From an uncultured Psychroserpens sp. (GTDB lineage Bacteria; Bacteroidota; Bacteroidia; Flavobacteriales; Flavobacteriaceae): DNA of 64,000 nucleotides. Below, in pieces: positions 16,399 to 45,915 of the stretch. The notes beneath the pieces were generated by a model. The model saw only the letters and a list, made by a program, of their open reading frames with translations, did not search any database and was not told the DNA's origin. Each line of letters opens with the position of its first letter. Position 1 is the first letter of the stretch. A program made the position numbers and the translations under genes. Location: assembly GCF_947500255.1 (NCBI RefSeq), contig NZ_CANMRL010000001.1:1178001-1242000 (forward strand). The letters run 5' to 3'.

Positions 16399-16438
16399 CA
16401 CCACTTTTTGTCACCTCTATTGCCACTTTTTGTCACTT
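16399..16438 (+). promoter_or_regulatory. Tandem candidate operators upstream of the giant LRR gene
   Basis: Two copies of CCACTTTTTGTCAC(C/T)T begin at 16401 and 16423, 22 bases apart (same helical face). They match the single copy upstream of the TPR-LuxR gene. A weak box, TACCCTTG (16469-16476), lies downstream and the ATG is at 16505. The layout suits activator-dependent transcription, which is inference. Confidence 0.5.
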
Positions 16439-16504
16439 CAAAAACAGATAGATTTAGGTATTGATTCTTACCCTTGCAGTACTAATTATCAAAACCTACT
16501 AACA

Positions 16505-19500
16505 ATGAAACAGCAATACCTACTTGTTTTTACATTATTGATTACATTACATTTTCAAGCTCAAGAATGTTCCTCACTAATGGAACCGGTATCTCTTCAA
16601 GCCCGTACAAATGAAGCCACGCTTATCGTAGAAGGCGAAGTTATAAATAGTAATAGCTATTGGGATGTTGACCATAAAAACATTTATACCATTCACGAAG
16701 TTACCGTGTATAAAAATGCTAAAGGTACTAATGCAACTACTGTTTTTGTTGAAACTCAAGGAGGTCAAGTTGGCGATCTAATCCAAGAAGTTTCAAGTGC
16801 TGCAAGATTAAGAATAGGCTATGAAGGCATCTTCTTTCTTAAACCGTCTAATCATTCATTTAGTATACCGCAAACCACTTATAAAATGGTTGCTGCTGCC
16901 CAAGGTTATATTAAATATAATCGTATAGAGAACAATGCATCAGATGTATTTAACAACTATCTTTCAATAGAAAACGATTTGTACTCTAAACTAGAGCAAG
17001 CCACCAATAAAAGGCTTACTGTAATAAAAGGAAAGCAAAGACCAGCTATCACAAATTTGCGCAGAGCTACACCAGTAATTTCAAGCTTTTCACCAACAAC
17101 AATTACTGCGGGTACACAAAGTATATTAACGATAAATGGGAGTAATTTTGGCTCAACTCAAGGCGAAGTAAGTTTTAAATCTGCTAATAGTGGAGGTTCT
17201 AGTTATATCGCTGCCCAAGCTGCTGAAATTATATCTTGGTCTAATACCCAAATACAAATAGAAGTGCCATCTACAGCAGGTACAGGAACCATAAGAGTGA
17301 CCAATGCTACAAATGAAACTGTAACAAGTAGTGCTTCAGTTACTATTAGATACAGTCATCTTAATACTATAAATGCTGGAATTCCATTTCCTACTGTTCT
17401 ACAAGATGATAATGGCAGTGGTGGTTTTACTTTTGAATATCATACTGGTTTTGTGACCACACAGGCAGAAACATATTTTGAAGATGCATTAGCGCTTTGG
17501 AATTGTCAATCTGGGGTTAATTTTCAAATAGCAACAGAAACAACAACTATAGATGAGATTGCAAGTGATAACGTTAATGTGGTTCGATTTGATAATGGAG
17601 AACTACCTTCTGGCGTTTTAGGAGCTGTATCTAGATTTATGATCGCTTGTTCAAGTAGTAGTAAAGGTATTATAGTCGAGATGGATATTACCTGGAATGA
17701 AAGCGTCAGTTGGTATTATGGTTATGGGTCACCAGGACCACGCTATGATTTTAAAACAGTGGCATTACACGAAATAGGGCATGCACATCAATTAGGACAC
17801 GTTATTGACCCTAATGCAGTAATGCATTACAATTTAAGTATTAGTGATGTAAAATTTGAGCTAACCTCTGATGATATAGATGCTGCTAATTACACGATGG
17901 ATATTTTCGCAGAAGATCCAGGTTGTGGTTATTCTGTTAGTACAGCTAATAGTCAATGTACCTATGTGCCAGACGATAATTTTGAAGCCTATTTAGAAGC
18001 CAACGGTATGGGTAACGGTATAGCAAATGATGATTTGGTAACTAAGGCTAATATTTCTGGAGTTACATTTTTAAGTGTTATAGGACAGGGAATTTCAGAT
18101 TTTACTGGTATTGAAGATTTTATGGCACTAGAAACTTTATATGCTATGGAGAATCCAATGTCTAGTTTAGATGTAACAGCGAATATAAATTTAAAAGAAC
18201 TATGGTGTAGTTTTTCAACAGCATTAACAAGCTTGAATATTTCTACATTAACAGCTTTAGAAACTTTAGAAATTTCGAGTACAGGAATTACTGCTATAGA
18301 TCTAAGTAATAATACCGTATTAAACAGAATTTGGGCGGGAGCACCTGGATTAACGTCATTAGATGTGAGTAATAATCTGTTGTTAGATTTTTTACATATA
18401 TCCAATTCGTCAATAACTAACCTAGATCTAAGCCTTAATACTGTTTTAACACAATTTAGAGCTAACAATAGCGCATTAGAGAGTTTGAATATTAAAAACG
18501 GGAACAATGCCAATGTTACAACGTTTAGTACATCAGGAAGCAACAACCTAACCTGTGCAACTGTTGATAATGTGGCCTATTCAACAACCCATTGGACTAG
18601 TATTAATAATGCTGTTACTTTTTTTAGTGAAGATTGTAATGCTACTACCTATGTGCCAGATGATAATTTTGAAAATTATTTAGAAACACACGATGCCTCA
18701 GGAAACACAGTAAGTATGGGTGACGCATCTAGCATGGGTAATGGAATAGCCAATGATGATACTGTGTTTACTTACCGTATTTCGAATCTGACAGAATTAA
18801 CTTTAAATGATTTAGGAATTACAGATTTAACAGGAATTGAGGATTTTTTAGGTTTGGTAATATTTAAGTCTTGGAGAAATAATTTAACTTCAGTAGCATT
18901 TACAAACAATATTCATTTAGAAGACCTTCGTGTAACAGAAAATGAGGAATTAACGGCTGTTGATATTTCATCCTTAACCTTATTAAAAGAGTTTTGGTGT
19001 TATGATACTGGATTAACCACTTTAGATGTTTCTAACAATATTGCTTTAGAAACACTATTTGTTTTTAATGCAAATATTCCGGCTTTAGACATAAGTACAA
19101 ACACTACTTTAATTGATTTAAGATGTAATGGTAATCAATTAACAAGCCTAGATGTTAGTAATAACCCATTACTAGAAATTCTTGTTGCTGGCAACAATAG
19201 TATTTCTGCTATTACATTAAATAATTTGGTTGATTTAAGGTTATTAAATTTATCAAATAATAACTTGACAGCATTAGATCTTAAGGCGAACACGGACTTA
19301 GAGGAACTATTCATCACTGATAATGAACTTACAGCGTTAGATATACGTAATGGTAATAATACAGCTATAGTAGATAATAGCTTTAGAACCTCAGGAAATC
19401 CTAATTTAACCTGTATTAATGTAGATAATGAAGTTTTTGCGACACAAACCTGGACCACTCATGTAGATACTACTACTTCCTTTAATGAACATTGTGATGA

Positions 19501-22500
19501 AACCTATGTGCCAGATGATAATTTTGAAACCTATTTGGAAACTCACGATATCAATGGTGCTATTGTAAACCTTGGTGATGTTTCTAGCTTAGGAAATGGT
19601 GTTATGGATGATTATGTAACGACGGCTTCTATTAATGCCGTTACCGCACTAGGTATAAGTGGATTAAATATAAGTGACCTCACAGGTATCGAAGATTTTA
19701 TAGCATTAGAAGTACTACTTTGTAGTAATAATAATCTAGCCACTATAGACGTAAACTTTAATACAAGTTTAAGAGTATTAGTAGCTATGAGTAATGGATT
19801 AACGTCTGTTAATATAGAAAATATAACAGCATTACAATTTCTAAACTTACACGATAATGCATTAACCAGTCTTGATTTTACATCGTTTCCTAATTTAACA
19901 GGCTTAATTGTGTCTAATAATAATTTAACCAGTTTAGATATTAGAAATGGTGCCAATGCATTAATGGAGTCAAACTCAGATTTTAATGCTACAGGAAACC
20001 CTAATTTAACGTGTATTAATGTAGATGATGAAAATTTCTCAACCACAACCTGGGAAAATATCGATACTACAGCATTATTTAGTGAACATTGTGGACTAAC
20101 CTATGTACCCGATGATAATTTTGAAACTCGATTAATTGAATTAGGTTACGATTCAGGCCCTTTAGATGATTACGTCCCTACTGATTTAATTTCAGGAGTA
20201 ACCTTCTTAAACGTTAGTAGTAGAAGTATAGCCGATTTAACAGGAATTGAAGACTTCACAGCTTTAGAAACCATATTCTGTAATAACAATAACTTAACAA
20301 CAATAAATACAAGTCAAAACATAGCATTAATTAATCTTAGATGTTATGGAAATCAGATTTCAGCATTAGACCTTAGTGCAAATACGAATCTACAATATTT
20401 AAGTTCATCACCTAATAATCTAACCACTTTAGATTTACAGTTTAATACTGCTTTAATAGAAGCCTTTTTAAACAATAATGATTTAGTAGAATTAAATTTA
20501 GATAACTGCGTAGCTTTAGAAAGATTACAAATTAAAGGTAATAATTTAAGTGCATTAAGTCTTGCCAATGGAAATAATTTAAATGTTACCGAGTTTGATG
20601 CAGAAAATAACCCGAATTTAACATGTATTAATGTAGATGATGCCACCGCATCTTATTTATCTGGTCCTTCATGGCTAAAAGACGCAACAGCATCTTATAG
20701 TGAACATTGTAATGATACCTATATACCAGATGATAATTTTGAAAATTATTTAGAAACACATGATGCTTCCGGAAATACAGTAGCAGTTGGAGATCCAACT
20801 AGTATGGGTAATGGTATTGCTAATGACGATTATGTAACAACTGCCAAGGTTAATACTGTAACTAGTTTAGATGTATCAAGTAAGGCCATAGCAGATTTAA
20901 CTGGAATAGAGGATTTTGAGGCATTAACAGAGTTGTTTTGTAGAAGTAATTCATTAACCAGTTTAGATGTTACTAATAACACACAACTAGCAACTTTGAG
21001 CTGTCAAAATAACGCTTTAACAAGTATAGATGTTTCACAAAACCCTCTTTTAGTAACGCTTAGAATAGGCAATAATAATTTAGCTAATTTAGATGTTACG
21101 CAGAACCCTCTTTTGGTAACATTAACTACAAGTGATAATACTGTGTCAAGCATAGATGTTACACAGAACCCACTTTTAGAAATACTAAGTTGTCACAACA
21201 ATTTTCTTACGAATCTGGATGTGACACAAAATCCGCTTTTAGAAGATTTAGATTTAGCTGATAATAGCGTAATAAATATAGATGTTACCAGTAATCCTAA
21301 TCTTGTTTACTTGTTTTGTGATAAGAATGATTTAACAAGTATAGATGTCACACAAAACCCATTATTAAAAGAGTTCGATTTAGGAAATAATCAAATTACT
21401 AGTTTAGATCTTTCACAAAATATAGTATTAGAAGAGTTATATGCCGACGATAATAACTTAAGGATATTAAATGCGGCTAACGGTAATAATATGGCTATTA
21501 CAGATTTTGAGATAGATTTTAATCCCAATCTAACTTGTGTATTAGTTGATGACGCAGCATATTCTTTAGAGTACTGGGATATTAAAGACAATCAAACGAG
21601 TTATAATGATGTAAAATGCGAGACCTATGTGCCTGATGATAATTTTGAGAATTACTTAGAAACGCATAATGATATGGGTGATGTTGTTCCACTGGGCGAC
21701 TCTAGTAGTTTAGGTAATGGCATTGCAAATGATAATTATGTTACAACTGCTCATATAGATCAAGCACAAAGTTTAGATGTAAGTAATGAAAATATTGCCG
21801 ATTTAACTGGAATCGAAGATTTTGTTTTATTACTAGATTTAAATTGTAGTAACAATCAATTAACGGCTTTATATTTAAGTTCTAATACAGAACTCGATAA
21901 TTTATATGCTAACGATAACAATATAACAACGCTTAGCTTAGAGGCTAACGGTAGCTTAGACCAGATTTATGTACAGAATAACGATTTGAGCACGCTAAGT
22001 CTCGCGGATGGCACTAGTGAGGATAACTTAGGTTTTGATGCTACAGGTAATCCAAATCTGTATTGTATAAAAGTAGGTAATGTGGCATCAGCTAATGCTG
22101 TTTGGAGTGATTTTATTGATCCGCAAACGAGTTTTAGCGATACGACTTGCGAAACAGTTTTTATAGCGCCAAAAGTATTTTTACAAGGAGCAACACTTAA
22201 TCCAAATACAGGAGAAGAAAACCTTATGCGAGACGATTTACGTGTGGCTAATCTAATACCAACATTAACCCCTTATAATGATGAAGCAATTATAGATGCT
22301 GGAGTATTTCTTACAACTGGAGACAATGCTATTGTAGATTGGGTTTGGGTAGAAATAATAGATCAATTTGATGTTTTACAAATTGAAGATACACAATCTG
22401 CTCTTTTACAACGCGATGGTGATGTTGTAGGTCTAGACGGTGTATCTAACCTTAGATTTAATATAGCACCAGATAATTACTATGTGGTTATTAAGCACCG

Positions 22501-22933
22501 TAATCATTTAGGGATTATGACATCGAACACAATAGCATTATCAAGCACAGTAACAGCAATAGACTTTACAGATGCTAATAATCCAACAACCTATGGAACC
22601 AATGCACAGACTACTTTTGGCATGCCAAGCGGTGTTGTTGCCATGTGGGCTGGTGATGTAAATGGAGATGCTATTGTTCAATACTCAGGAACCAATCCTG
22701 ATGTACCAGATATTTTATCTTCTGTACTTAATGACGTAGGAAACTTCTTAAATCTTCCTACATATAGTATTTCAGGGTATTTAGTAGATGATGTAAACAT
22801 GGATGGAAATATACAGTATTCAGGAACCAATCCTGATACACCTTTCATTCTTCAAAATGTATTGGCACACCCAGGAAACTTCCTAAACTTTAGTACCTAT
22901 CAAATACAAGAACAAATACTTCAAGAAAACTAA
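16505..22933 (+). CDS. Giant secreted metzincin-like / leucine-rich-repeat protein
   Basis: 2142 residues from ATG 16505 (signal peptide MKQQYLLVFTLLITLHFQAQ). The frame is open further upstream, but that would precede the signal peptide and run into the operators. The order of parts is: N-terminal region (~25-185); IPT/TIG domain (~187-275); a metzincin-like protease domain with zinc motif HEIGHAHQLGH (422-432) and Met-turn DPNAVMHY; six leucine-rich modules (~486-1880), each opening with Y(V/I)PDDNFE and closing NPNLTCINVDD...C; a C-terminal domain (~1885-2142) with two Asp-rich DVNGDA/DVNMDG + QYSGTNPD units. No standard T9SS domain is seen, although the C-terminal domain resembles that of other flavobacterial surface proteins. 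The Gly usually found in the zinc motif is Gln here. A small T9SS protein follows 27 bases later. Confidence 0.85.
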   Translation: MKQQYLLVFTLLITLHFQAQECSSLMEPVSLQARTNEATLIVEGEVINSNSYWDVDHKNIYTIHEVTVYKNAKGTNATTVFVETQGGQVGDLIQEVSSAARLRIGYEGIFFLKPSNHSFSIPQTTYKMVAAAQGYIKYNRIENNASDVFNNYLSIENDLYSKLEQATNKRLTVIKGKQRPAITNLRRATPVISSFSPTTITAGTQSILTINGSNFGSTQGEVSFKSANSGGSSYIAAQAAEIISWSNTQIQIEVPSTAGTGTIRVTNATNETVTSSASVTIRYSHLNTINAGIPFPTVLQDDNGSGGFTFEYHTGFVTTQAETYFEDALALWNCQSGVNFQIATETTTIDEIASDNVNVVRFDNGELPSGVLGAVSRFMIACSSSSKGIIVEMDITWNESVSWYYGYGSPGPRYDFKTVALHEIGHAHQLGHVIDPNAVMHYNLSISDVKFELTSDDIDAANYTMDIFAEDPGCGYSVSTANSQCTYVPDDNFEAYLEANGMGNGIANDDLVTKANISGVTFLSVIGQGISDFTGIEDFMALETLYAMENPMSSLDVTANINLKELWCSFSTALTSLNISTLTALETLEISSTGITAIDLSNNTVLNRIWAGAPGLTSLDVSNNLLLDFLHISNSSITNLDLSLNTVLTQFRANNSALESLNIKNGNNANVTTFSTSGSNNLTCATVDNVAYSTTHWTSINNAVTFFSEDCNATTYVPDDNFENYLETHDASGNTVSMGDASSMGNGIANDDTVFTYRISNLTELTLNDLGITDLTGIEDFLGLVIFKSWRNNLTSVAFTNNIHLEDLRVTENEELTAVDISSLTLLKEFWCYDTGLTTLDVSNNIALETLFVFNANIPALDISTNTTLIDLRCNGNQLTSLDVSNNPLLEILVAGNNSISAITLNNLVDLRLLNLSNNNLTALDLKANTDLEELFITDNELTALDIRNGNNTAIVDNSFRTSGNPNLTCINVDNEVFATQTWTTHVDTTTSFNEHCDETYVPDDNFETYLETHDINGAIVNLGDVSSLGNGVMDDYVTTASINAVTALGISGLNISDLTGIEDFIALEVLLCSNNNLATIDVNFNTSLRVLVAMSNGLTSVNIENITALQFLNLHDNALTSLDFTSFPNLTGLIVSNNNLTSLDIRNGANALMESNSDFNATGNPNLTCINVDDENFSTTTWENIDTTALFSEHCGLTYVPDDNFETRLIELGYDSGPLDDYVPTDLISGVTFLNVSSRSIADLTGIEDFTALETIFCNNNNLTTINTSQNIALINLRCYGNQISALDLSANTNLQYLSSSPNNLTTLDLQFNTALIEAFLNNNDLVELNLDNCVALERLQIKGNNLSALSLANGNNLNVTEFDAENNPNLTCINVDDATASYLSGPSWLKDATASYSEHCNDTYIPDDNFENYLETHDASGNTVAVGDPTSMGNGIANDDYVTTAKVNTVTSLDVSSKAIADLTGIEDFEALTELFCRSNSLTSLDVTNNTQLATLSCQNNALTSIDVSQNPLLVTLRIGNNNLANLDVTQNPLLVTLTTSDNTVSSIDVTQNPLLEILSCHNNFLTNLDVTQNPLLEDLDLADNSVINIDVTSNPNLVYLFCDKNDLTSIDVTQNPLLKEFDLGNNQITSLDLSQNIVLEELYADDNNLRILNAANGNNMAITDFEIDFNPNLTCVLVDDAAYSLEYWDIKDNQTSYNDVKCETYVPDDNFENYLETHNDMGDVVPLGDSSSLGNGIANDNYVTTAHIDQAQSLDVSNENIADLTGIEDFVLLLDLNCSNNQLTALYLSSNTELDNLYANDNNITTLSLEANGSLDQIYVQNNDLSTLSLADGTSEDNLGFDATGNPNLYCIKVGNVASANAVWSDFIDPQTSFSDTTCETVFIAPKVFLQGATLNPNTGEENLMRDDLRVANLIPTLTPYNDEAIIDAGVFLTTGDNAIVDWVWVEIIDQFDVLQIEDTQSALLQRDGDVVGLDGVSNLRFNIAPDNYYVVIKHRNHLGIMTSNTIALSSTVTAIDFTDANNPTTYGTNAQTTFGMPSGVVAMWAGDVNGDAIVQYSGTNPDVPDILSSVLNDVGNFLNLPTYSISGYLVDDVNMDGNIQYSGTNPDTPFILQNVLAHPGNFLNFSTYQIQEQILQEN
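17960..22150 (+). repeat. Six tandem leucine-rich modules within the giant gene
   Basis: Modules start at about 17960, 18647, 19502, 20099, 20717 and 21623, each with codons for TY(V/I)PDDNFE. Lengths vary (roughly 687, 855, 597, 618, 906 and 530 bases) because the number of ~21-residue LRR units differs. The fifth module has the most uniform units, with repeated IDVTQNPLL, which suggests recent internal duplication. Confidence 0.85.
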
Positions 22934-23983: not shown

Positions 23984-26900
23984 TCAATTCAAAATCTTAA
24001 TTGTATTTCCTTCAATCCAAGTTTTGAATTCATCACCATAATATAAGTAGGCTGTACTTGCTGGTGCTTGGTAGTCGCCTGCAATATCTGCTTTAAGGTC
24101 AAGCCTGATGGTTTTTGTTTCAGAAGGTTTGAGCGATCTCCAGTAAAACACCAGATAATTATCAAACACTTCATAATAGGCTACTTTTTCTTCTTCTAAT
24201 AATTCTTTTAATTGCCATGGTTGTGCTGTGGTTCCTGATGGAATACCAATAATAGATGTCACCATTCCTAAAGGCTCTTCTTTGGTATTAGATACATGTA
24301 TCGTCATACTTACATTATCACCAACGTTATACTTGTTTTCAAGAAGCTTTGTGTCTAATTTTAGTGGGCTCTCAGCAGACGAATCTGGAACATAACTATC
24401 CCAGTTTATACTTAAACAATATGGGAAGGTAACTTCATCATTAGCAAATTGTACTTGAACCTTTTGTTGTCCTTTTTTGAAATAAGTTTCTAAACTATCA
24501 ATAATAATCTTTCCTTGAGCGTTGATGCTCAGTCGTCTTTTTAGAGACTGTCCGTTAATTGTTAATTCTACAGTGTCATTAGCTTTGATAATGAGTTGTT
24601 TTTGCATTTTAGTGTAATTAATCAATGCTTTTAATGCCATAGCAGTAGATTGTGTAGAACCAAATCTGTTTTGCTTTCTTAGACCTACTAAGTACTCAAC
24701 ACCTTTAGCAATTAAAGCTTTATCTGCCTGAACTTCTCTCATTAAAGCCAACAAGGTAAAAGCGGTAGTTTCTATATGTTTTGCATTTCCGTAGGACCTT
24801 GTAATAGTATTTTCTACTGGTAAGCCTTTAAATTCGTTTTTAAAGATCTGATCTTTAAGTTTATTAATGAGTGTGCTTGCATTTTCTGGCATATCAAGAT
24901 TATAACTGGCCAAGGCCATCATTGCCATTTTATAGGCATCTTTACTTTTTAGAGCATCTTTAAATGCTGCTTCGTACTCTAAGCTGAGGTCTACATCAAT
25001 TCCAGCTTCACTGATCGCATAGACGATATAGGCATTGGCAACATCTGCTGGAGAGCTCGCAAAACTATCATAACCTTTAGTGCTTTTTTTAAAGCCACCT
25101 TTCCCGTCTTTTCTGCTCATTAGCCATTGTACGGTTCTATCGATCATGGCTTGATCTACATTACCATAGACCTGTTTCATCTCGGTGAATTCTAAAATCC
25201 CGTAAGCTGTTAAGGTTTCATGAGGCGGTGTTTTACCAAACCACTCAAAACCACCTTCCTTGGTTTCAAACCCGATGAGACGCTTATAACCTTTATCAAT
25301 AAAGTCTAAAGCTTTAGCTTCTATTTCAGGATTGCTTTTACCAGATTCTTTAAGGTACTGAAGTACCATAATGTTTGGATATGTAGATGATGAGGTTTGC
25401 TCAAAACAGCCGTAAGGTGCTCTTATTAAAGACTCTATTCCGTTCATCACATCACCAATAACATCTGTATAAATGTTGAAGTTGGCGCTTAAGCTTCCAT
25501 CAACAACACTATTAATATCAAATTGGTAGACTCCAGATTTAGATCCAGAAATTGAGGTTTCTGTTGGGAAGTACGGACTTAAAATCGTCACGTTCTTTTT
25601 AACCACATCACTTAGTGTTTCTGAGTTTATACGAACTTCAAGTGTTGCGTTCCCTGCTTTTTCAATAGGAACAACACGAACATTTCTCAATATCGAACTG
25701 TTGGCATTAACAGTGACTTGACGATCATAATTTTCGGCAAATTTTAATTGTTTTGGCAGTATAATTTCAATGTCAGTCGTAATGTCTTTTGCTGTTTCGT
25801 TTGTTATGGTTAATGGTAAAACCACATCATCTTTGAGCGCCATATAATTAGGTGACTTAAAATCGACATTCAATAATTTTTTTGTGGCATAAGTTTCTTC
25901 TTGACGTCCAATCATACCATTAAAGCCAACACCTTCAGTAGTAATTTTAAAAGATGTGATAGCATCGTTATTGTAAAACTCAACCTCTGCTTGCCCATTT
26001 GCATCAGTTTGTACTACAGGGTTCCAATAAATGGTTTGTCTAAAATCGGTTCTCTCACTTGTGGTGTTTTCACCTACATAAACAGGAACATAAAATTCCT
26101 TTACTCGAGAGAGGCGTGATGGTTTCGAGTTTTGAAAATAGGCGATACCGTAGTTATTAAACTTTGCGTTATTTAGTTTTTTCTTTGAACTGTTATTAAT
26201 GTAACCACCACTATTGGTTTGAATTACAATAACACCGTTAGAACCTCTACAACCATAAATAGCAGTAGCTCCAGCATCTTTTATCACGCTAACACTATAG
26301 AGGTCTGAAGGGTTAAGGTTTCTAAAAACACTGTCGTCTACAGGAACTCCATCAACTATAAACAAAGGCTCAATGTTTCCAGAGATACTTCCAACACCTC
26401 TCAGTTGAACGGTTGAGTTTGCGCCTGGCGCACCATTGGCTGTTGTGATATTAAGTCCTGCCACTTGCCCTTGTAATAATTGCGCTACAGAAGATGTATT
26501 TGAAAGAGTTTCTTCTGAGACTATTACTATAGAAGCAGTAGTAGCTTTGCTCTTACTTGTTGCTCGATATCCTACAACCACCACTTCATCAAGTTGACTA
26601 GAATCCTCAGTAAGTGCGATTTCAGCGGCTTTCACTTTTTTTAGGATTTTCTTTTTTAAAGGCTTTTCACGTTTGTCAAATGTTTTGACGCTCTCAGCAT
26701 TTTCTTTATAAGTAGCGTCTTTATGATATTGATAACGACCATTAATCAAGTTCGTTTTTTTGATAAATACAGATTTTCTGTCATCTCTGTAAGCCAATAG
26801 AACAAGGTGCTGACTATCTGTGAATTTAAATGTAAACGTCCCATCGTCTTCAGTATCAAATACAAGTATTTTATGACCAAATCTATCCATAAGGAGTAAA

Positions 26901-28561
26901 TGCGCTGTAATTGGTTTTCCTTTTTTATCTACAACAGTTCCAGATTGTATGGCATGTTGTTCTGGTAAAAACTCAGCATTTTCTAATGTCACTTGTGGAT
27001 TCACAATATAGTTTCTCCATCCATGGGTAAGCATCAAATAGTCTAAAGCTTCGGCAGATTTTTCTTCTTTAGGATTGAGATAAAAACTTGGCTTATGGAT
27101 TTTTCCTTTTAATTCTGAAGACACTAATAAGTACGACAGGATATGATCTTGCTTGTCATCTGCAAACGATAATAACTTGTTATCTGCAACAGCAATAGAT
27201 ACATTAGAAGGCAAAGGCTGACCTTTGGCATCTGTAGTATTGATCTTTAATTTTACTCTTTCACGAGTTTCGTAAACGGTTTTTTCTAAGTCTATAGCAA
27301 CATTTAACTGTTTATGTGCATTGACAAATACCAGACGTTCAGCTACAATTTGATTTGCTTTATTTTTTATACTGAATTTGGTAATTCCCATTGGAAAGTC
27401 TTTAGTGTTTATGCTAATAAAATTCTCGTTATTAGATATTTTTTTCTCAAGTAATACTTTGGAAGCACTTGAAACCTCTAATCGTAATGACTTTTTTTCA
27501 GTAGAAAACAGGATGATTTTAGCTCTAGATTTTTCAATCTCTACTGAAAATCGCGTTCCTTTATTTTGAACTTTTGGAAGTACAATATCACGTTCAGAAA
27601 CAAAAGGCGATTTTAATTTTGCCACATAGGTTTCACCTTGTTCTGCGGAAATAGCAACACGTCCCATACCGTCATGAAAACTCGAAAATGTGGCTACAGT
27701 GTTACCTTTGCTATCAATAATATCGCCGCTTACATCAACGGGTTTTGCAAATTCATTAAGGGCCTTGAATGCAATAGTGTTTGTAGTTCCTGCTATGATT
27801 TGTCCACTTTCAGGAAAAAACTGAAGATCAAGATTGTCTAAGACCACAGGAACACTTCGAGAAATAGATTCTGTTGATCCTTTATAAGGAATAAGAACAT
27901 TGAGAACCACATCTGTAGAGCTCAACGCTTTAGGAAGCGTAAATGATGGATTTATTTTTCCCTTAACATCTGTCACTGCGTTTTGAGTGATTATTTTTTG
28001 TCCTTTTACTGAGACTTCATACGTGACTTCTGTACTAGCAAGTGGGTTGTTCTTTAGGTCTTTAACTTCAAAATTGGCAATGACTTCACTGTTTTTTCCA
28101 TAGCCTTCTTTTTGAAAGTCCAATGTTAAAAGCAAATTAGGTTTCACAACTTTTTGAACTGTGATTTGTTTTGTAAAAAAGGAGTCTTCACCAAAATTGC
28201 GCATCCAATTCGTATAGACTTTTAATGTGTAAATACCGCCTACCCAATTAGCGTTAATATCAAAATCGCCATAGGCATAACCATCTTTGATAGATAGCTT
28301 TAGAGATTTAACTATAGCTCCTTTAGGGGAAATAAGTTCTGCATGTGCGACATCACTAAGATTGGAAACTGTATTGTTTTCGGTAACGACATAAGATTTA
28401 AACCACAGTGTCTCACCTGGAAAGTAAAATGGTCTATCAGTTTGTGTATATATTTTTTCTATTGGAGCTATTGTGTTTTGATACGCTTTGAAAGCCGTCA
28501 ATGATGTCATGACAATAACAGCTAAAAGAAAATAAGCACCTATGTTTTTTATAGTTTTCAT
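23984..28561 (-). CDS. Alpha-2-macroglobulin-like protein containing a SusC-type TonB plug domain
   Basis: 1525 residues. An N-terminal hydrophobic signal without a lipobox precedes an MG2-type domain (YTQTDRPFYFPGETLWFKSY, ~37-56) and further macroglobulin domains. At ~535-600 there is a carboxypeptidase-regulatory-like domain (SGTVVDKKGKPI ... DDGTFTF). At ~657-787 there is a SusC-type plug: LDEVVVVGY, LLQGQVAGLNIT, QLRGVGSISG, PLFIVDGVPVDD, IKDAGATAIYG, GSNGVIVIQT. A2M domains follow (~840). A thioester-type motif GCFEQT (Cys ~1051) lies in an alpha-alpha barrel, then the receptor-binding-like C-terminus. It begins 5 bases after a TonB-type barrel gene whose own plug seems missing. A protease trap tethered to that barrel through the plug is my inference. 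The usual partner gene pbpC is absent nearby. Confidence 0.9.
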   Translation of the reverse strand: MKTIKNIGAYFLLAVIVMTSLTAFKAYQNTIAPIEKIYTQTDRPFYFPGETLWFKSYVVTENNTVSNLSDVAHAELISPKGAIVKSLKLSIKDGYAYGDFDINANWVGGIYTLKVYTNWMRNFGEDSFFTKQITVQKVVKPNLLLTLDFQKEGYGKNSEVIANFEVKDLKNNPLASTEVTYEVSVKGQKIITQNAVTDVKGKINPSFTLPKALSSTDVVLNVLIPYKGSTESISRSVPVVLDNLDLQFFPESGQIIAGTTNTIAFKALNEFAKPVDVSGDIIDSKGNTVATFSSFHDGMGRVAISAEQGETYVAKLKSPFVSERDIVLPKVQNKGTRFSVEIEKSRAKIILFSTEKKSLRLEVSSASKVLLEKKISNNENFISINTKDFPMGITKFSIKNKANQIVAERLVFVNAHKQLNVAIDLEKTVYETRERVKLKINTTDAKGQPLPSNVSIAVADNKLLSFADDKQDHILSYLLVSSELKGKIHKPSFYLNPKEEKSAEALDYLMLTHGWRNYIVNPQVTLENAEFLPEQHAIQSGTVVDKKGKPITAHLLLMDRFGHKILVFDTEDDGTFTFKFTDSQHLVLLAYRDDRKSVFIKKTNLINGRYQYHKDATYKENAESVKTFDKREKPLKKKILKKVKAAEIALTEDSSQLDEVVVVGYRATSKSKATTASIVIVSEETLSNTSSVAQLLQGQVAGLNITTANGAPGANSTVQLRGVGSISGNIEPLFIVDGVPVDDSVFRNLNPSDLYSVSVIKDAGATAIYGCRGSNGVIVIQTNSGGYINNSSKKKLNNAKFNNYGIAYFQNSKPSRLSRVKEFYVPVYVGENTTSERTDFRQTIYWNPVVQTDANGQAEVEFYNNDAITSFKITTEGVGFNGMIGRQEETYATKKLLNVDFKSPNYMALKDDVVLPLTITNETAKDITTDIEIILPKQLKFAENYDRQVTVNANSSILRNVRVVPIEKAGNATLEVRINSETLSDVVKKNVTILSPYFPTETSISGSKSGVYQFDINSVVDGSLSANFNIYTDVIGDVMNGIESLIRAPYGCFEQTSSSTYPNIMVLQYLKESGKSNPEIEAKALDFIDKGYKRLIGFETKEGGFEWFGKTPPHETLTAYGILEFTEMKQVYGNVDQAMIDRTVQWLMSRKDGKGGFKKSTKGYDSFASSPADVANAYIVYAISEAGIDVDLSLEYEAAFKDALKSKDAYKMAMMALASYNLDMPENASTLINKLKDQIFKNEFKGLPVENTITRSYGNAKHIETTAFTLLALMREVQADKALIAKGVEYLVGLRKQNRFGSTQSTAMALKALINYTKMQKQLIIKANDTVELTINGQSLKRRLSINAQGKIIIDSLETYFKKGQQKVQVQFANDEVTFPYCLSINWDSYVPDSSAESPLKLDTKLLENKYNVGDNVSMTIHVSNTKEEPLGMVTSIIGIPSGTTAQPWQLKELLEEEKVAYYEVFDNYLVFYWRSLKPSETKTIRLDLKADIAGDYQAPASTAYLYYGDEFKTWIEGNTIKILN

Positions 28562-28566
28562 AACGA

Positions 28567-31413
28567 TTATATTTTAATGTTGAGCATAAAGCCAATCTCA
28601 CTAGTAATTGGCATATTAAAGAAGTTTAATCCAAGACTAGATGATGTATCGTAGAGACTACGATAAGGAGAGGCACCATCAAACTTGGTCCATGTGATAA
28701 GATTATTAGCGTACAAACCAAGAGTTAATTCTCTTATAAAAGTAGAACGGTCGTCGTCAAAATCGAAGTTATATGAGAGGTCGATTGATTTTATATTAAC
28801 ATAACTCCCATCTTGAATAGCAGCTTCGTCAACACCGGAAAACCCGTATCGTACAAATCTGTTTTGTGAAATATCATTTTGCGGATTATAGAAATCTACA
28901 GGAATTGTATTTTGTTGCCCTTGTTGATTGACGCCTGAAAATATAAAGTTGGTAATTGTTCTTTCATTAGCAGACTGTTGAGACCTCCCTAAATAGTTAA
29001 GGACATTTTGAGTGCCATTCCAAACATCTCCTCCTTTTTGGATATCTAAAACAACTTTTAGTTTTAAATCTTTCCATGTAAATGACTGACTGACTCCAAG
29101 ATTAAAATCAGGAATTGGATCACCAATAATTTGTGGTTGACTAGCCACTAAAGGAAACCCTTCATTATCAATGATTATGTTATTTTGACTATCTCTAGCA
29201 TAAGCAGATCCAACAATAGCTCCGGCAGATTCTCCTACAATAAGATTTTTGGATACCGATGAAAATCCAGCAATTGGAACACGTTCTTCGTCACTATTTA
29301 TACTAGTGACTTTTGCTCTGTTAGTGGAAAAAACAAAAGTTGGACTGTAGTAGAAATCATCTGTTATTCTAAGTCTTGAGTTGAGACTCATTTCAAGCCC
29401 TTTGTTTGTTATATCTGCAATGTTTTTTAATGCATAATTATTGTTCTCAAAAATTGGAAATACAGAACCTTTAATTTGAGTATTGAAATAATCCAGATCA
29501 AAACTGAAATAAATATTCCTGATATAAAAATCGAGATCTACACCAAACTGATAATTTATTTTTTCTTCTAAATCTAAGGCATTACTCAAAAACAAATCGT
29601 TGTTGGCGGTATATGCTAAACTTTGAGACGGTAATAATGCCAGACTGTTATGACTTTGATTGTTGTAAAATAATGATGGGTTATTAACATCAAAAGATGT
29701 TGAAGCATAAACATTAAAATTGCTAAAATTATAAATATCGAATATCCTCTCAAGGTCAACATTAAGTTGTAAAAATGGAAGTGCCCACTTATTGTTTTGA
29801 ACTGATGAGATATACGAATTATTTCCTATAGTGAACTCAACATCAGAATAGTTCAATCCGTACGTGAATTTGTTTAGAATTCTTAATGTGTTTCTGTTCA
29901 ATCGATTATTGATGGTATTGATCGTTTGTGGGTTTTCAAAGCTAAACGGATTAAACCCTATACCTTCATTGAGGTTATATGTTAAATCTTCAGAAGAAAA
30001 GTCGAGTTTAGAGAAGACTTGAATTTCATTTTTGCGATCGTCGCTTTCGTATTCAAAATCAAGTGCTGCATTGAATACATTCTTTTCAATAGTTTTATCA
30101 CTAGAATACCCATCTTCAAATCCAGCAGAATTAGCTACCAGTCCGAAATTTTGAGTATCAGTATTTCTTGTATAACTTAAACTATTATGAATATTAATGG
30201 TTTCAGATAGTTCCATCCCATTTTTAAGATAAGCGACAAAGAATTTGTTTTTTTCGGCGTTGCGGTTGTTGTCTAGCAACCAATTAGGATTATTGAAGTT
30301 TGCATTAAAACGACGCTGCGTATTATTGGCTAGAATAGAGTTTTGAGCATTGCTAAAACTAGCTGGAGTAGCCCAAGCATTTAACAACGTGTTATTTAAA
30401 AATCCATTTACATTGGGTTGATTGTCTCTGTTTTTTCCATATTTTAGATAAGCTTTCCATGACAATTTTTTTGAATTACGGTAGCTTTGATTAAAAGAGA
30501 TTTTCATATAATCACTAACACTTCTTTCTCTATTAAAGACATCTTTAAATTGGGTATTTGTATAGTTAAGTTCGATAATACTTCCATCTGTAGAAGCGCT
30601 AAAGGAAAGCGTATTATCTGTTTTGTATGTTGTTTGTAAAACGGCATTATCGTATAGGTTAGAAGCTATCCCATTTCCATTACCTAGGGCAACTAATTGT
30701 CCGTTAATATCATAATCATAAATGCTACCATTAAATTCTAGGTTGCTCAGTTTTGGGCCATAAGAAAATAAATTTCCTGTTTCAGCACCTAGAAAAGTAA
30801 GCTCATCATTGAGAGAAGCACCTTGAGCATAAACAGATTGTAACTTAGGTAGATTCTTATCTTTAAAAAATTGAGTTCCGAACCTACTATTGAATTTAAT
30901 TTCAAAATAGATATCCGAATTAAAATAGGTCATATCTACTTTGTTGTCCTTCACTTCAATCTCCTTAATTCTACTATATTGGTGATTATTTACTTTGTTA
31001 TATGTTTTATTAGAAAGGTCTAAACTAGGCACATTAAATGGAGTATCGCTAGTAGTTTTTATAGCATTCTTGTAGGCGTCATTTTCAATAGGTTTAATAG
31101 GAATTTGATCAACAAAAAAATCGTTGGAATCTAATCCTAACATTTTTGACGTGACCCTTACCTCTTTGGTTGTCATAGCTATATAAGTAAATACTAAAGT
31201 TTCTCCAACTTTGCATTTAATACTGTAATTACCATCAAAGTCGGTTTGAACACCTCTAGTGGTGCCTTTCACCATAACATTAACACCTGGAAGAGGAAGA
31301 CCATCTGCTTCAGAATTTATGGTACCACTCACAATACCTTCTTGGGCAAACAGGTTTGCCGAAACAAGTATGACCAACCCTATGCATAGTTTTTTAAGTA
31401 ATTGATTTTTCAT
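28567..31413 (-). CDS. SusC-type outer-membrane barrel apparently lacking its plug domain
   Basis: 948 residues. A signal peptide (ends VSANLFAQ) and a carboxypeptidase-regulatory-like domain (~25-90, GIVSGTINSEADGLPLPGVN) are followed by a ~60-residue linker. After the linker the strands of a TonB-dependent barrel begin directly (~155 on; LPKLQSVYAQG resembles the first barrel segment of SusC proteins) and run to FMLNIKI at the C-terminus. The expected ~110-residue plug (VVVGYG, RG.xS..., VIDGVP, KDASATAIYG) is not visible. A domain with exactly those motifs sits in the A2M gene 5 bases downstream. The two are clearly one operon. The transported substrate is unknown, and no SusD-type lipoprotein is adjacent. 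Confidence 0.85.
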   Translation of the reverse strand: MKNQLLKKLCIGLVILVSANLFAQEGIVSGTINSEADGLPLPGVNVMVKGTTRGVQTDFDGNYSIKCKVGETLVFTYIAMTTKEVRVTSKMLGLDSNDFFVDQIPIKPIENDAYKNAIKTTSDTPFNVPSLDLSNKTYNKVNNHQYSRIKEIEVKDNKVDMTYFNSDIYFEIKFNSRFGTQFFKDKNLPKLQSVYAQGASLNDELTFLGAETGNLFSYGPKLSNLEFNGSIYDYDINGQLVALGNGNGIASNLYDNAVLQTTYKTDNTLSFSASTDGSIIELNYTNTQFKDVFNRERSVSDYMKISFNQSYRNSKKLSWKAYLKYGKNRDNQPNVNGFLNNTLLNAWATPASFSNAQNSILANNTQRRFNANFNNPNWLLDNNRNAEKNKFFVAYLKNGMELSETINIHNSLSYTRNTDTQNFGLVANSAGFEDGYSSDKTIEKNVFNAALDFEYESDDRKNEIQVFSKLDFSSEDLTYNLNEGIGFNPFSFENPQTINTINNRLNRNTLRILNKFTYGLNYSDVEFTIGNNSYISSVQNNKWALPFLQLNVDLERIFDIYNFSNFNVYASTSFDVNNPSLFYNNQSHNSLALLPSQSLAYTANNDLFLSNALDLEEKINYQFGVDLDFYIRNIYFSFDLDYFNTQIKGSVFPIFENNNYALKNIADITNKGLEMSLNSRLRITDDFYYSPTFVFSTNRAKVTSINSDEERVPIAGFSSVSKNLIVGESAGAIVGSAYARDSQNNIIIDNEGFPLVASQPQIIGDPIPDFNLGVSQSFTWKDLKLKVVLDIQKGGDVWNGTQNVLNYLGRSQQSANERTITNFIFSGVNQQGQQNTIPVDFYNPQNDISQNRFVRYGFSGVDEAAIQDGSYVNIKSIDLSYNFDFDDDRSTFIRELTLGLYANNLITWTKFDGASPYRSLYDTSSSLGLNFFNMPITSEIGFMLNIKI

Positions 31414-43470: not shown

Positions 43471-45915
43471 ATGAAGCATTATTTTTTCGTTTTAGTGTTC
43501 TTTTTTTCTATGACGATTGTAGCGCAGCAAAAACAGGATTTTAAGTACACGCAAACCTCTTTATCCCAAGTATTAAAAGAGCTTCAAGAACGAAACAATA
43601 TATCCATTTCATTTGCGTCTGATGCTATCAAAGACATCTTTGTTACTATTGATATAAAGCAAATTACTTGGGTTGAATTTTTATCAGTTTTAGAAAGTGA
43701 AACGGGTTTAACTTTTGAAAAAATATCTGAAAATCAAATTATAGTCACACCTCATACAGATAATAATATAATAGTCCCTATTGAAGCCTTAAATGATATA
43801 ATTATTTTGGGATATGTTACAAATGGGATAGATAAGAACAAAGATGGTTCTATAGCTGTAGATACTGAAAGATTAGGGATTTTACCTGGAATGGTAAATA
43901 CTGATATCGCACAAAGTATTCAATTAATTCCTGGGATTTCAACTTTAGACGAATCGGCGACAGGAATACAGGTTAGAGGTGGTTCTCCTGATCAAAACTT
44001 AATATTATACGATAACATCAAACTGTTTAATACGGGTTATTTCTACGGCATGTTTTCGTTATTTAATCCTTTTGCCACTCAAAAAGCAACTATTTATAGA
44101 TCTGGAACAAGCGCTAGCTATGGTGATCGTATTTCTGGTATTATAGATATTTCTAGTGGTAATAAAATTCATGAAAACACTAAAGGGGGATTTGAAATCG
44201 ATGGTTTATCTATAAATGGTTATGTAAAAACACCACTGTCAAGTAAGATAGGGTTGTATCTATTTGCAAGACGGTCATATTCAGACCTATTAAAAACGCC
44301 TACTTATAATAGTTATGTCGATAAAATTTTTACAAATTTCGGTGTTGCAAGAGATGTTAATGGGAATATTCTTGAATTAGAAACGGATGATGATTTTAGT
44401 CCAGAAACTAGCAATAACACATTTAATTTTGCTGACATCAGTACCAAACTGATTATAAAACCAAATGAGAAAAATGATATAGAATTTAGTGCATTATACA
44501 CTAGAAATCGTTTAGATTTTGATTTCAAAGGAGGAGATGAGGTCCTTGTAGATTCACTAATCACACAAAATAAAGGGATAAGTTTTAACTGGAAGCATCA
44601 AAGTAGTGAAAAGCAGCAAGAAGAACTTACAGCTTACTTTTCTGAGTATAATTCTTTTTATCAGAATGATGAGATAAAAGATGAAACAGGAGATGGTATT
44701 TTAGATCTAAGCGAAGTCAATATTAGAGAGAACAATATTACAGAAATTGGAGCAAATTTCACATCATTTACGCAAATTAGAGAATCTCAAAAACTAACAC
44801 TTGGTTATCAGTTGTCTTTTACCGATTTGGACGTCACCATAAGTAAAGAAAAGCCTATTGAATCTGAAAGAGAAGTCTTAGTGCAAGATGATAGTAATCT
44901 AAAAAACGCATTATTTGGAGAATATACCATAAATCTAAACAATAAAGGTTTAATTAATGCTGGTGTGCGATTTTCGCATTATAGTAGTTTAAATGAATTT
45001 TTAATTGAGCCACGAGTTAATTTTGAATATGCTTTAAGCAAACGCCTAAGATCAAAAATCGCCATTGAAAGAAGAAACCAACCTATTTCACAATTAATAG
45101 AATTCAACCATACCGAATTGCGCTTAGAGAACAATTTATGGCGATTGTCGGATGATAAACAGTATCCATTACTATCGAGTAATCAAATTTCAGGAGGTCT
45201 ATTATATCATCATAAGAGTTTAAACATTGATGCTGATTTTTATTACAAAGAACTAAAAGGGCTAACAACATTTACTAATGGTTTTAGTAATCCTTTAGAA
45301 AACTTAGAACAAGGTGAAAGCACAATAAAGGGTGTTGATATTTTATTAAAATATAAACGAAACAATTATAAAGTTTGGCTAGGGTATACCTTTAATGATA
45401 TAACGTTTCAGTTTCTAAATTTAGAAGACACACCATCTAAATTTAATGGTAATAATGACATTACACATCAATTTAGAATTTCCAACTCGTTTAAACTAAA
45501 CAATTGGCAATTTGCTTTAGGATGGCAAATTAGAACAGGTAAACCAATAACTCCTGTAAATAGTTATACTATAGAAATTGATGCTGACGGTGAAAATGCT
45601 GGTGTTGTAAACTTTGGCGCTATAAATAGTGATAGACTACCGAGTTTTCATCGATTGGATGCTTCGGTTTTATATGATTTCAAGATTAAAAAAACAGATG
45701 CTCAGTTAGGGATATCACTCTTAAACATTTACAACAGAATAAAACCATTAAATTTAATTTACAAGGCCGAACGCAAACCTCTAGATGATGGCGGTATTGC
45801 TATTGAAGGTACGACGGGTGAAACACCTGAAGAACGGGAAATTATATTGGAGCAGGTGATTCAACGATTCTCATTAGGGTTTACACCTAATATATCATTT
45901 AAGCTATTTATTTAA
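43471..45915 (+). CDS. TonB-dependent receptor with STN signalling domain (FecA-like)
   Basis: 814 residues. It has a signal peptide (ends MTIVAQ), then an STN domain (~23-90: QTSLSQVLKELQERNNISIS ... LSVLESETGLTFEKI). A plug domain (~130-230: SIQLIPGISTLDESATGIQVRGGSPDQNLIL in part, TIYRSGTSASYGDRISGIIDI) and a 22-strand barrel follow, ending in ISFKLFI. STN plus upstream sigma/anti-sigma marks a transducer: substrate binding at the surface signals through FecR to FecI. The ligand is unknown; no SusD partner is present, so a small chelate or peptide is as likely as a glycan. Confidence 0.93.
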   Translation: MKHYFFVLVFFFSMTIVAQQKQDFKYTQTSLSQVLKELQERNNISISFASDAIKDIFVTIDIKQITWVEFLSVLESETGLTFEKISENQIIVTPHTDNNIIVPIEALNDIIILGYVTNGIDKNKDGSIAVDTERLGILPGMVNTDIAQSIQLIPGISTLDESATGIQVRGGSPDQNLILYDNIKLFNTGYFYGMFSLFNPFATQKATIYRSGTSASYGDRISGIIDISSGNKIHENTKGGFEIDGLSINGYVKTPLSSKIGLYLFARRSYSDLLKTPTYNSYVDKIFTNFGVARDVNGNILELETDDDFSPETSNNTFNFADISTKLIIKPNEKNDIEFSALYTRNRLDFDFKGGDEVLVDSLITQNKGISFNWKHQSSEKQQEELTAYFSEYNSFYQNDEIKDETGDGILDLSEVNIRENNITEIGANFTSFTQIRESQKLTLGYQLSFTDLDVTISKEKPIESEREVLVQDDSNLKNALFGEYTINLNNKGLINAGVRFSHYSSLNEFLIEPRVNFEYALSKRLRSKIAIERRNQPISQLIEFNHTELRLENNLWRLSDDKQYPLLSSNQISGGLLYHHKSLNIDADFYYKELKGLTTFTNGFSNPLENLEQGESTIKGVDILLKYKRNNYKVWLGYTFNDITFQFLNLEDTPSKFNGNNDITHQFRISNSFKLNNWQFALGWQIRTGKPITPVNSYTIEIDADGENAGVVNFGAINSDRLPSFHRLDASVLYDFKIKKTDAQLGISLLNIYNRIKPLNLIYKAERKPLDDGGIAIEGTTGETPEEREIILEQVIQRFSLGFTPNISFKLFI

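Follow-up and report, generated by a model that had tools for sequence, protein, structure and literature searches.

A TonB-dependent transporter plug seems to have been relocated from its barrel into a neighboring alpha-2-macroglobulin in a marine Psychroserpens and many relatives

The SusC/RagA transporters (TIGR04056; BT2264, BT1763, and RagA) comprise an N-terminal extension (NTE), a TonB box, a plug, and a barrel. To our knowledge, plug and barrel form a single chain in every natural TonB-dependent transporter known. Braun and colleagues reportedly split FhuA artificially in 2003 and found that a separately supplied plug works with the plugless barrel, but this was a laboratory construct as opposed to a natural two-gene system. 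On the other side of the comparison stand the alpha-2-macroglobulins (A2Ms), namely, the type I bacterial A2Ms (ECAM/YfhM) and A2M/C3/C5/CD109. The bacterial forms are believed to inhibit proteases that gain access to the periplasm (PMC4498604). Here, we describe a two-gene locus from an uncultured Psychroserpens sp. (assembly GCF_947500255.1, contig NZ_CANMRL010000001.1), located in a 64,000-nucleotide stretch, positions 1,178,001 to 1,242,000 of the forward strand, which we call the window. At this locus, the plug of an outer membrane gate seems to have been relocated into the neighboring protease-trapping protein, both in this marine bacterium and in many relatives.

All four SusC/RagA parts are found within the pair, but the plug and TonB box are on a separate protein. 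The genes directly flanking the pair encode no SusD-like protein (SusD elsewhere in the genome was not sought). Compared with ECAM/YfhM and A2M/C3/C5/CD109, the A2M-like protein has a SusC plug with a TonB box in the bait-region/anaphylatoxin position; it also differs from ECAM/YfhM in having no lipobox on inspection and no penicillin-binding protein (PBP1C) gene immediately beside it. The initial annotation of this DNA knew of no described system of this kind, and we likewise found no A2M with a TonB plug and no natural plug/barrel split in PMC open-access titles and abstract openings, a search outside which most subscription papers and bioRxiv lie. The features of the two genes, all on the minus strand and given in window positions, are as follows.

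28567..31413, minus strand: plugless SusC-type barrel protein, 948 amino acids, first gene of the pair
31144..31332, minus strand: its SusC NTE, a carboxypeptidase-regulatory-like domain, residues 28-90 (Pfam PF13715, 7e-15)
30916..31143, minus strand: its mostly disordered linker, residues 91-166, at the place of the SusC TonB box and plug (AlphaFold model; no plug hidden Markov model [HMM] match)
28570..30915, minus strand: its barrel domain, residues 167-948 (AlphaFold model, VIA match, TIGR04056 212-980)
23984..28561, minus strand: A2M-like protein with inserted SusC plug, 1525 amino acids, second gene
28208..28456, minus strand: A2M macroglobulin (MG) domain MG2, residues 36-118 (Pfam PF01835, 1e-11)
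26762..26944, minus strand: A2M weak carboxypeptidase-regulatory-like domain ahead of the plug, residues ~540-600 (subthreshold Pfam, E 0.15; model strands)
26204..26641, minus strand: A2M TonB box and SusC-type plug in the bait-region slot, residues 641-786, TonB box 657-665 (Pfam Plug, TIGR04056 62-206)
26078..26104, minus strand: A2M VKEFYVPVY, perhaps equivalent to the channel-threading alpha'NT segment of A2M
25766..26035, minus strand: A2M PF00207 (MG7-like) domain, residues 843-932 (Pfam)
24614..25474, minus strand: A2M thioester domain (TED), residues 1030-1316 (Pfam PF07678, 1e-32)
25397..25411, minus strand: A2M thioester motif GCFEQ, residues 1051-1055
24029..24334, minus strand: A2M C-terminal MG domain (bMG10/A2M_recep-like), residues 1410-1511 (subthreshold Pfam)

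The barrel gene precedes the A2M gene on the same strand with 5 nucleotides between them, and together they cover a single SusC model (TIGR04056) in two parts that complement each other: positions 62-206 match the A2M, and 212-980 match the barrel protein. The initial annotation had read the 948-residue protein as a barrel with a carboxypeptidase-regulatory-like domain and no plug, a reading open to overturning by a plug found with an HMM or in a structure prediction; both approaches upheld it. The protein has a SusC-type beta-barrel, which matches SusC chains from after their plug onward (VIA, AlphaFold model) and aligns with BT2264 over 711 residues, and its TIGR04056 score of 165 bits lies below the cutoff of 368 bits. 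It has no Pfam Plug match at an E value of ≤1, no TIGR04056 match before model position 212, and no plug in its AlphaFold model. In place of the plug, the linker has blocks with predicted local-distance difference test (pLDDT) values of 36 to 47 (model 71-120) and two short strands (model 127-141). On these searches and the model, we rejected a plug concealed in the N terminus. We also rejected a sequencing split of one gene, since the two genes lie in different reading frames in the window and every paired locus has the barrel gene ahead of the A2M gene.

The plug is found in the second protein. Pfam Plug and TIGR04056 (167.6 bits for the plug part) bear out the earlier description of an A2M-like protein holding a SusC-type plug. 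Its TonB box reads LDEVVVVGY, and the TonB-box-like motif is conserved. Of 32 PF07715 matches genome-wide, this plug is one, lying there in a 1529-residue open reading frame (ORF). The rest of the protein is a recognizable A2M, with an MG-domain ring fold (AlphaFold models were made of the barrel protein alone and of A2M residues 22-1005) and a TED with the CxEQ motif; GCxEQ is kept in all homologues, both plug bearing (129/129) and plugless (60/60). Segments like VKEFYVPVY occur in most alignment rows of both kinds (70/109 plug-bearing and 36/60 plugless rows by a strict regular expression), and the carboxypeptidase-regulatory-like domain rises above the Pfam cutoff in homologues L242 and L243. 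We found no type IX sorting domain by Pfam and no lipobox on inspection of the A2M; a lipobox expression matches 2 of 129 plug-bearing homologues. The nearest named relatives of the two proteins are from Psychroserpens (98% identity for the barrel and 94% for the A2M). Database names for many homologues of the pair treat them one by one, as “TonB-dependent receptor plug domain-containing protein” or “carboxypeptidase-like regulatory domain-containing protein.”

In human A2M and C3/C5, the place just ahead of MG7 in the domain order is held by the bait region and the anaphylatoxin (ANA) domain, respectively. In the A2M-like protein, this place holds neither a disordered bait region nor an ANA domain; it holds the TonB box and SusC plug together with linkers of low pLDDT. 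Plugless homologues carry, between the carboxypeptidase-regulatory-like domain and the MG7-like start “DFRxTIYWN,” a segment that is variable, charged, and of low complexity in the rows displayed, and in the alignment the TonB box and plug replace this segment. The proportion of P, E, K, A, Q, and N in the slot differs modestly (0.49 in 60 plugless rows versus 0.38 in 102 plug-bearing rows), so the case for a bait-like character comes chiefly from position and from how low in complexity those rows are. Bait region and ANA domain are equivalent (PMC9352918). Judged by domain order, the plug slot is the bait-region (A2M) or anaphylatoxin (C3/C5) place, which makes the plug a candidate trigger besides a tether.

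Relatives were sought with the C-terminal part of the A2M, a plug-free query that introduces no bias toward SusC. Matches were found in 15 of 397 genomes of its own family (E ≤ 1e-20), in 42 of 226 genomes of family f5, probably Weeksellaceae (E ≤ 1e-50), and, at E ≤ 1e-10, in 31 of 395 genomes of an order sample (partial matches counted) and 119 of 395 of a class sample (partial matches and other A2Ms counted); contigs of species-level genomes gave 139 relatives, of which 80 were kept. We compared neighborhoods at 14 other own-family genomes, 80 contig loci, 80 order/class places, and 20 f5 loci. Among the first 94 loci, 89 reach upstream (L108, L114, L115, L118, and L142 end before the barrel place), and all 89 have a plug-free barrel ORF immediately upstream on the same strand. 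The order/class loci include 19 plug-bearing A2Ms, 18 of them with a barrel, and all 20 f5 loci pair a plug-bearing A2M with a barrel, which lies in several broken frames in L288. In total, a plugless barrel lies immediately beside 127 of 128 testable plug-bearing A2Ms, including L080 and L123, whose A2Ms are split by a frameshift. Eight loci, all plug bearing, are second genome copies; removing them takes 169 rows to 161 and the count to 119 of 120.

By contrast, a barrel HMM placed this barrel beside 0 of 59 testable A2M homologues lacking a SusC-type plug, although the HMM is tuned to the window's own barrel family and a very different plugless barrel would escape it. The neighbors of these A2Ms that were examined by Pfam (six large and seven others) were all unrelated proteins. 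The plugless set numbers 60, with L228 not counted as tested (197 bases upstream) and L248 excluded (TED of only 26 bits); L243, with 969 bases upstream, is plugless by our HMM, though Pfam gives it a plug of another type and TonB_C. Co-occurrence of the plugless barrel with A2M-plug genes, the absence of which the initial annotation had named as its refutation, is thus near perfect (127/128 versus 0/59), and the pairing of plug protein and plugless barrel is obligate with one exception, L244. Little else is shared: across 65 paired loci, another homologous gene within 4 kb is common to only 254 of 2080 locus pairs (12%).

A search of 30 genomes for the barrel family gave matches in 24. The plugless form occurs in five (G000, G036, G127, G424, and G1098), all of which also hold a plug-bearing A2M; the other matches are open frames of at least 986 residues, not each examined for a plug. 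On a FastTree phylogeny of 282 barrels, computed with long-branch warnings, the plugless barrels form one clade (174 rows, SH-like support 98), with the plugless label taking in database proteins without known neighbors. Between this clade and ordinary SusC fall barrels fused to VIT domains. These belong to single-chain NTE-VIT-VWA-plug-barrel proteins (~1600 amino acids; P0241-P0335), which head the homologue list and occur in Dysgonomonas and others; one is encoded in G1098 (L299:5408-10279; Dysgonomonas, going by the matching protein). Like the pair, they and shorter VIT-VWA-plug proteins (~935 amino acids) fuse a large extracytoplasmic module to a TonB box and plug, with ITIH-like VIT/VWA where the pair has the A2M. 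In the long form, plug and barrel are still one chain. Some VIT-VWA-plug proteins have no barrel (P0310-P0313), and some VIT-VWA proteins carry TonB_C (e.g., P0337).

Other arrangements recur near these genes. Directly upstream of the plugless barrel, L171 and L282 (f5) encode another plug-bearing protein, in which Pfam finds vWF_A, VWA, and YfbK_C domains; L176 has a VWA/YfbK protein of this kind without a plug. A protein encoded upstream of the barrel in L179 (8835-11168) combines, by Pfam, a plug and VWA with a domain for type IX secretion sorting. In three A2Ms of family f17 (L242, L243, and L245), a TonB C-terminal domain (PF03544) occupies the same insertion slot, to which L243 adds a plug of another type and L242 a TonB-box-like motif and plug remnant. 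“Half” proteins of 830 to 1350 amino acids (L149-L167, sometimes in tandem, as in L153) have, like the A2M, N-terminal macroglobulin domains (MG2) followed by a plug-like remnant. However, they have no thioester domain, their plug HMM match is absent or ≤63 bits versus 86 to 190 bits in the paired A2Ms, and a barrel of this family is found in 0 of 19 of their regions. The VIT/VWA fusions, the extra f5 genes, and the f17 A2Ms suggest a wider theme in Bacteroidota in which plugs may serve as modular adaptors. A 2219-residue open frame in L168 (5518-12177) also has a SusC-type plug, at residues 1291-1421.

We believe that the two proteins probably form a two-chain TonB-dependent outer membrane complex, in which the plug of a periplasmic A2M fills the barrel in trans and cutting of the plug or a pull by TonB springs the trap. 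In this model, the 948-amino-acid protein would provide a SusC-type barrel with an empty lumen, and the A2M, exported to the periplasm, would fill that lumen with its plug, leaving the macroglobulin ring and thioester domain suspended beneath the pore. Because the plug fills the bait-region slot, it could be stopper, tether, and trigger at once. A protease entering the gate would cut the plug, or TonB would pull it via the TonB box; the chain would then leave the macroglobulin channel, expose the thioester, and have the intruder covalently caught at its entry point. The trigger is the weakest of these proposed steps. Both ends of a seated SusC plug face the periplasm, and the topology allows insertion from that side. 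Since the A2M also has neither type IX sorting domain nor lipobox, a periplasmic A2M reaching into the barrel would be the simplest arrangement, and the initial annotation's idea of a trap tethered at the cell surface fits less well.

The SusC protein Bt1763, the TonB box of which (VDEVVV) is close to the LDEVVVVGY of the A2M, was seen plug-free in closed, empty particles that its authors consider likely nonphysiological; even so, their proposal is that TonB may pull out the plug in its entirety, and an earlier preparation had lost its plug to proteolysis (PMC7782687). In human A2M, the bait passes through a channel at its C-terminal end, and the trap is set off when that end retracts once the bait has been cleaved (PMC9352918).

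Several results weigh against this model. According to Harwood et al., human A2M is not triggered when its bait is made longer but left unbroken (PMC9352918). Plug cleavage is hence the trigger with more support, and a pull by TonB is the bolder proposal; pulling alone may be insufficient. The plug part of our A2M model is of low confidence, as are residues 627-678 around the TonB box, which are probably disordered. L244 has a plug-bearing A2M and no barrel in 2.7 kb upstream, where the ORF looks like an ABC permease from its sequence; its contig ends downstream. An A2M tree from which the plug columns were removed needs only two changes of plug state. This points to a linkage that is deep and conserved, as opposed to repeated independent co-gain, and the plug/barrel association is essentially phylogenetic. 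Mutual information with average product correction was calculated for 97 deduplicated pairs of 106 (effective number 74 at 70% identity; the 20 f5 pairs not included), and at this small power the plug was depleted among the top inter-protein pairs (2 versus 10.2 expected in the top 100, 11 versus 30.5 in the top 300, and 178 versus 304.7 in the top 3000). The plug-barrel distance correlation (r = 0.68) was below that of the other A2M domains (0.81 to 0.96); the partial correlation (0.25) was positive and not the lowest. Lastly, a plug tree of 367 sequences mixes A2M plugs with those of other receptors, with 13 label changes of which at least 4 are forced. This tree has 155 columns and is poorly resolved, and its counts are rough, as the “otherTBDT” group holds some split A2M fragments (e.g., L080). 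The mixing may reflect exchange of plug domains with other receptors.

We consider it unlikely that the plug docks in trans only as an anchor and stopper. On that view, the A2M would be a periplasmic protease inhibitor kept below the outer membrane and set off at some other site or through the linkers beside the plug, and the barrel would be a gated importer whose plug merely happens to bear the A2M. The complementary split and the pair linkage fit this explanation equally, the conserved TonB-box-like motif agrees with it, residues 627-678 could act as bait, and ECAM, too, is a periplasmic A2M with a membrane anchor (PMC4498604). What speaks for more than an anchor is where the plug sits: the simplest anchor place would be an end of the A2M, but the plug lies in the bait slot, where plugless homologues have their variable charged segment.

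That the A2M plug never enters this barrel appears improbable to us. Here, the plug would compete for TonB or enter other SusC barrels, the barrel would be a pore for secretion or import that a different protein plugs, and the pair would merely share an operon. Near-perfect pairing across families while other neighbors change is hard to square with this, as is the absence of the barrel beside all 59 testable homologues without a SusC-type plug. It would, however, agree with the missing plug coevolution signal, with a plug genealogy that looks as if plugs had been exchanged, and with the second plug-bearing VWA/YfbK-type protein just upstream of the barrel in some f5 loci. Secretion or surface display, in which the barrel serves to export or expose some molecule and the A2M either gets out through it or guards an exported protease, we regard as very improbable: in Myxococcus, secretion of the protease PopC reportedly requires Oar, a TonB-dependent transporter (PMC6434023), but our A2M lacks a type IX sorting domain and lipobox, the ends of a seated plug are periplasmic, and the flanks of the 65 compared loci have so little in common that a protease gene is excluded as an invariant third member at those loci.

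Returning to the two-chain complex with the plug in trans, a broader form of it can be put forward only tentatively. The pair would be a natural split TonB-dependent transporter acting as a gate-guard, with a complement-like thioester protein whose bait region has turned into the barrel plug, so that forcing, cutting, or TonB-pulling the gate springs a covalent periplasmic trap, and it would be part of a Bacteroidota theme of swapping plugs and TonB C-terminal domains among A2M, VIT/VWA, and YfbK-like proteins. If true, the split transporter would be an accessible system for asking if transport involves an exit of the plug from the barrel, and a complement-like defense fold would be linked directly to an outer membrane gate. 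A2M proteins would also gain a mode of triggering that does not depend on a free bait loop, a matter that Harwood et al. call open (PMC9352918).

The pair is flanked by a CMD-family protein upstream and a type IX-sorted (Por_Secre_tail) protein downstream. Adjoining the latter, the window encodes a large protein with a matrixin-type metalloprotease domain, a TIG domain, and leucine-rich repeats (16430-22933). Farther away, at 43471-45915, lies an 814-amino-acid TonB-dependent receptor with a plug and an N-terminal FecR_C-type match.
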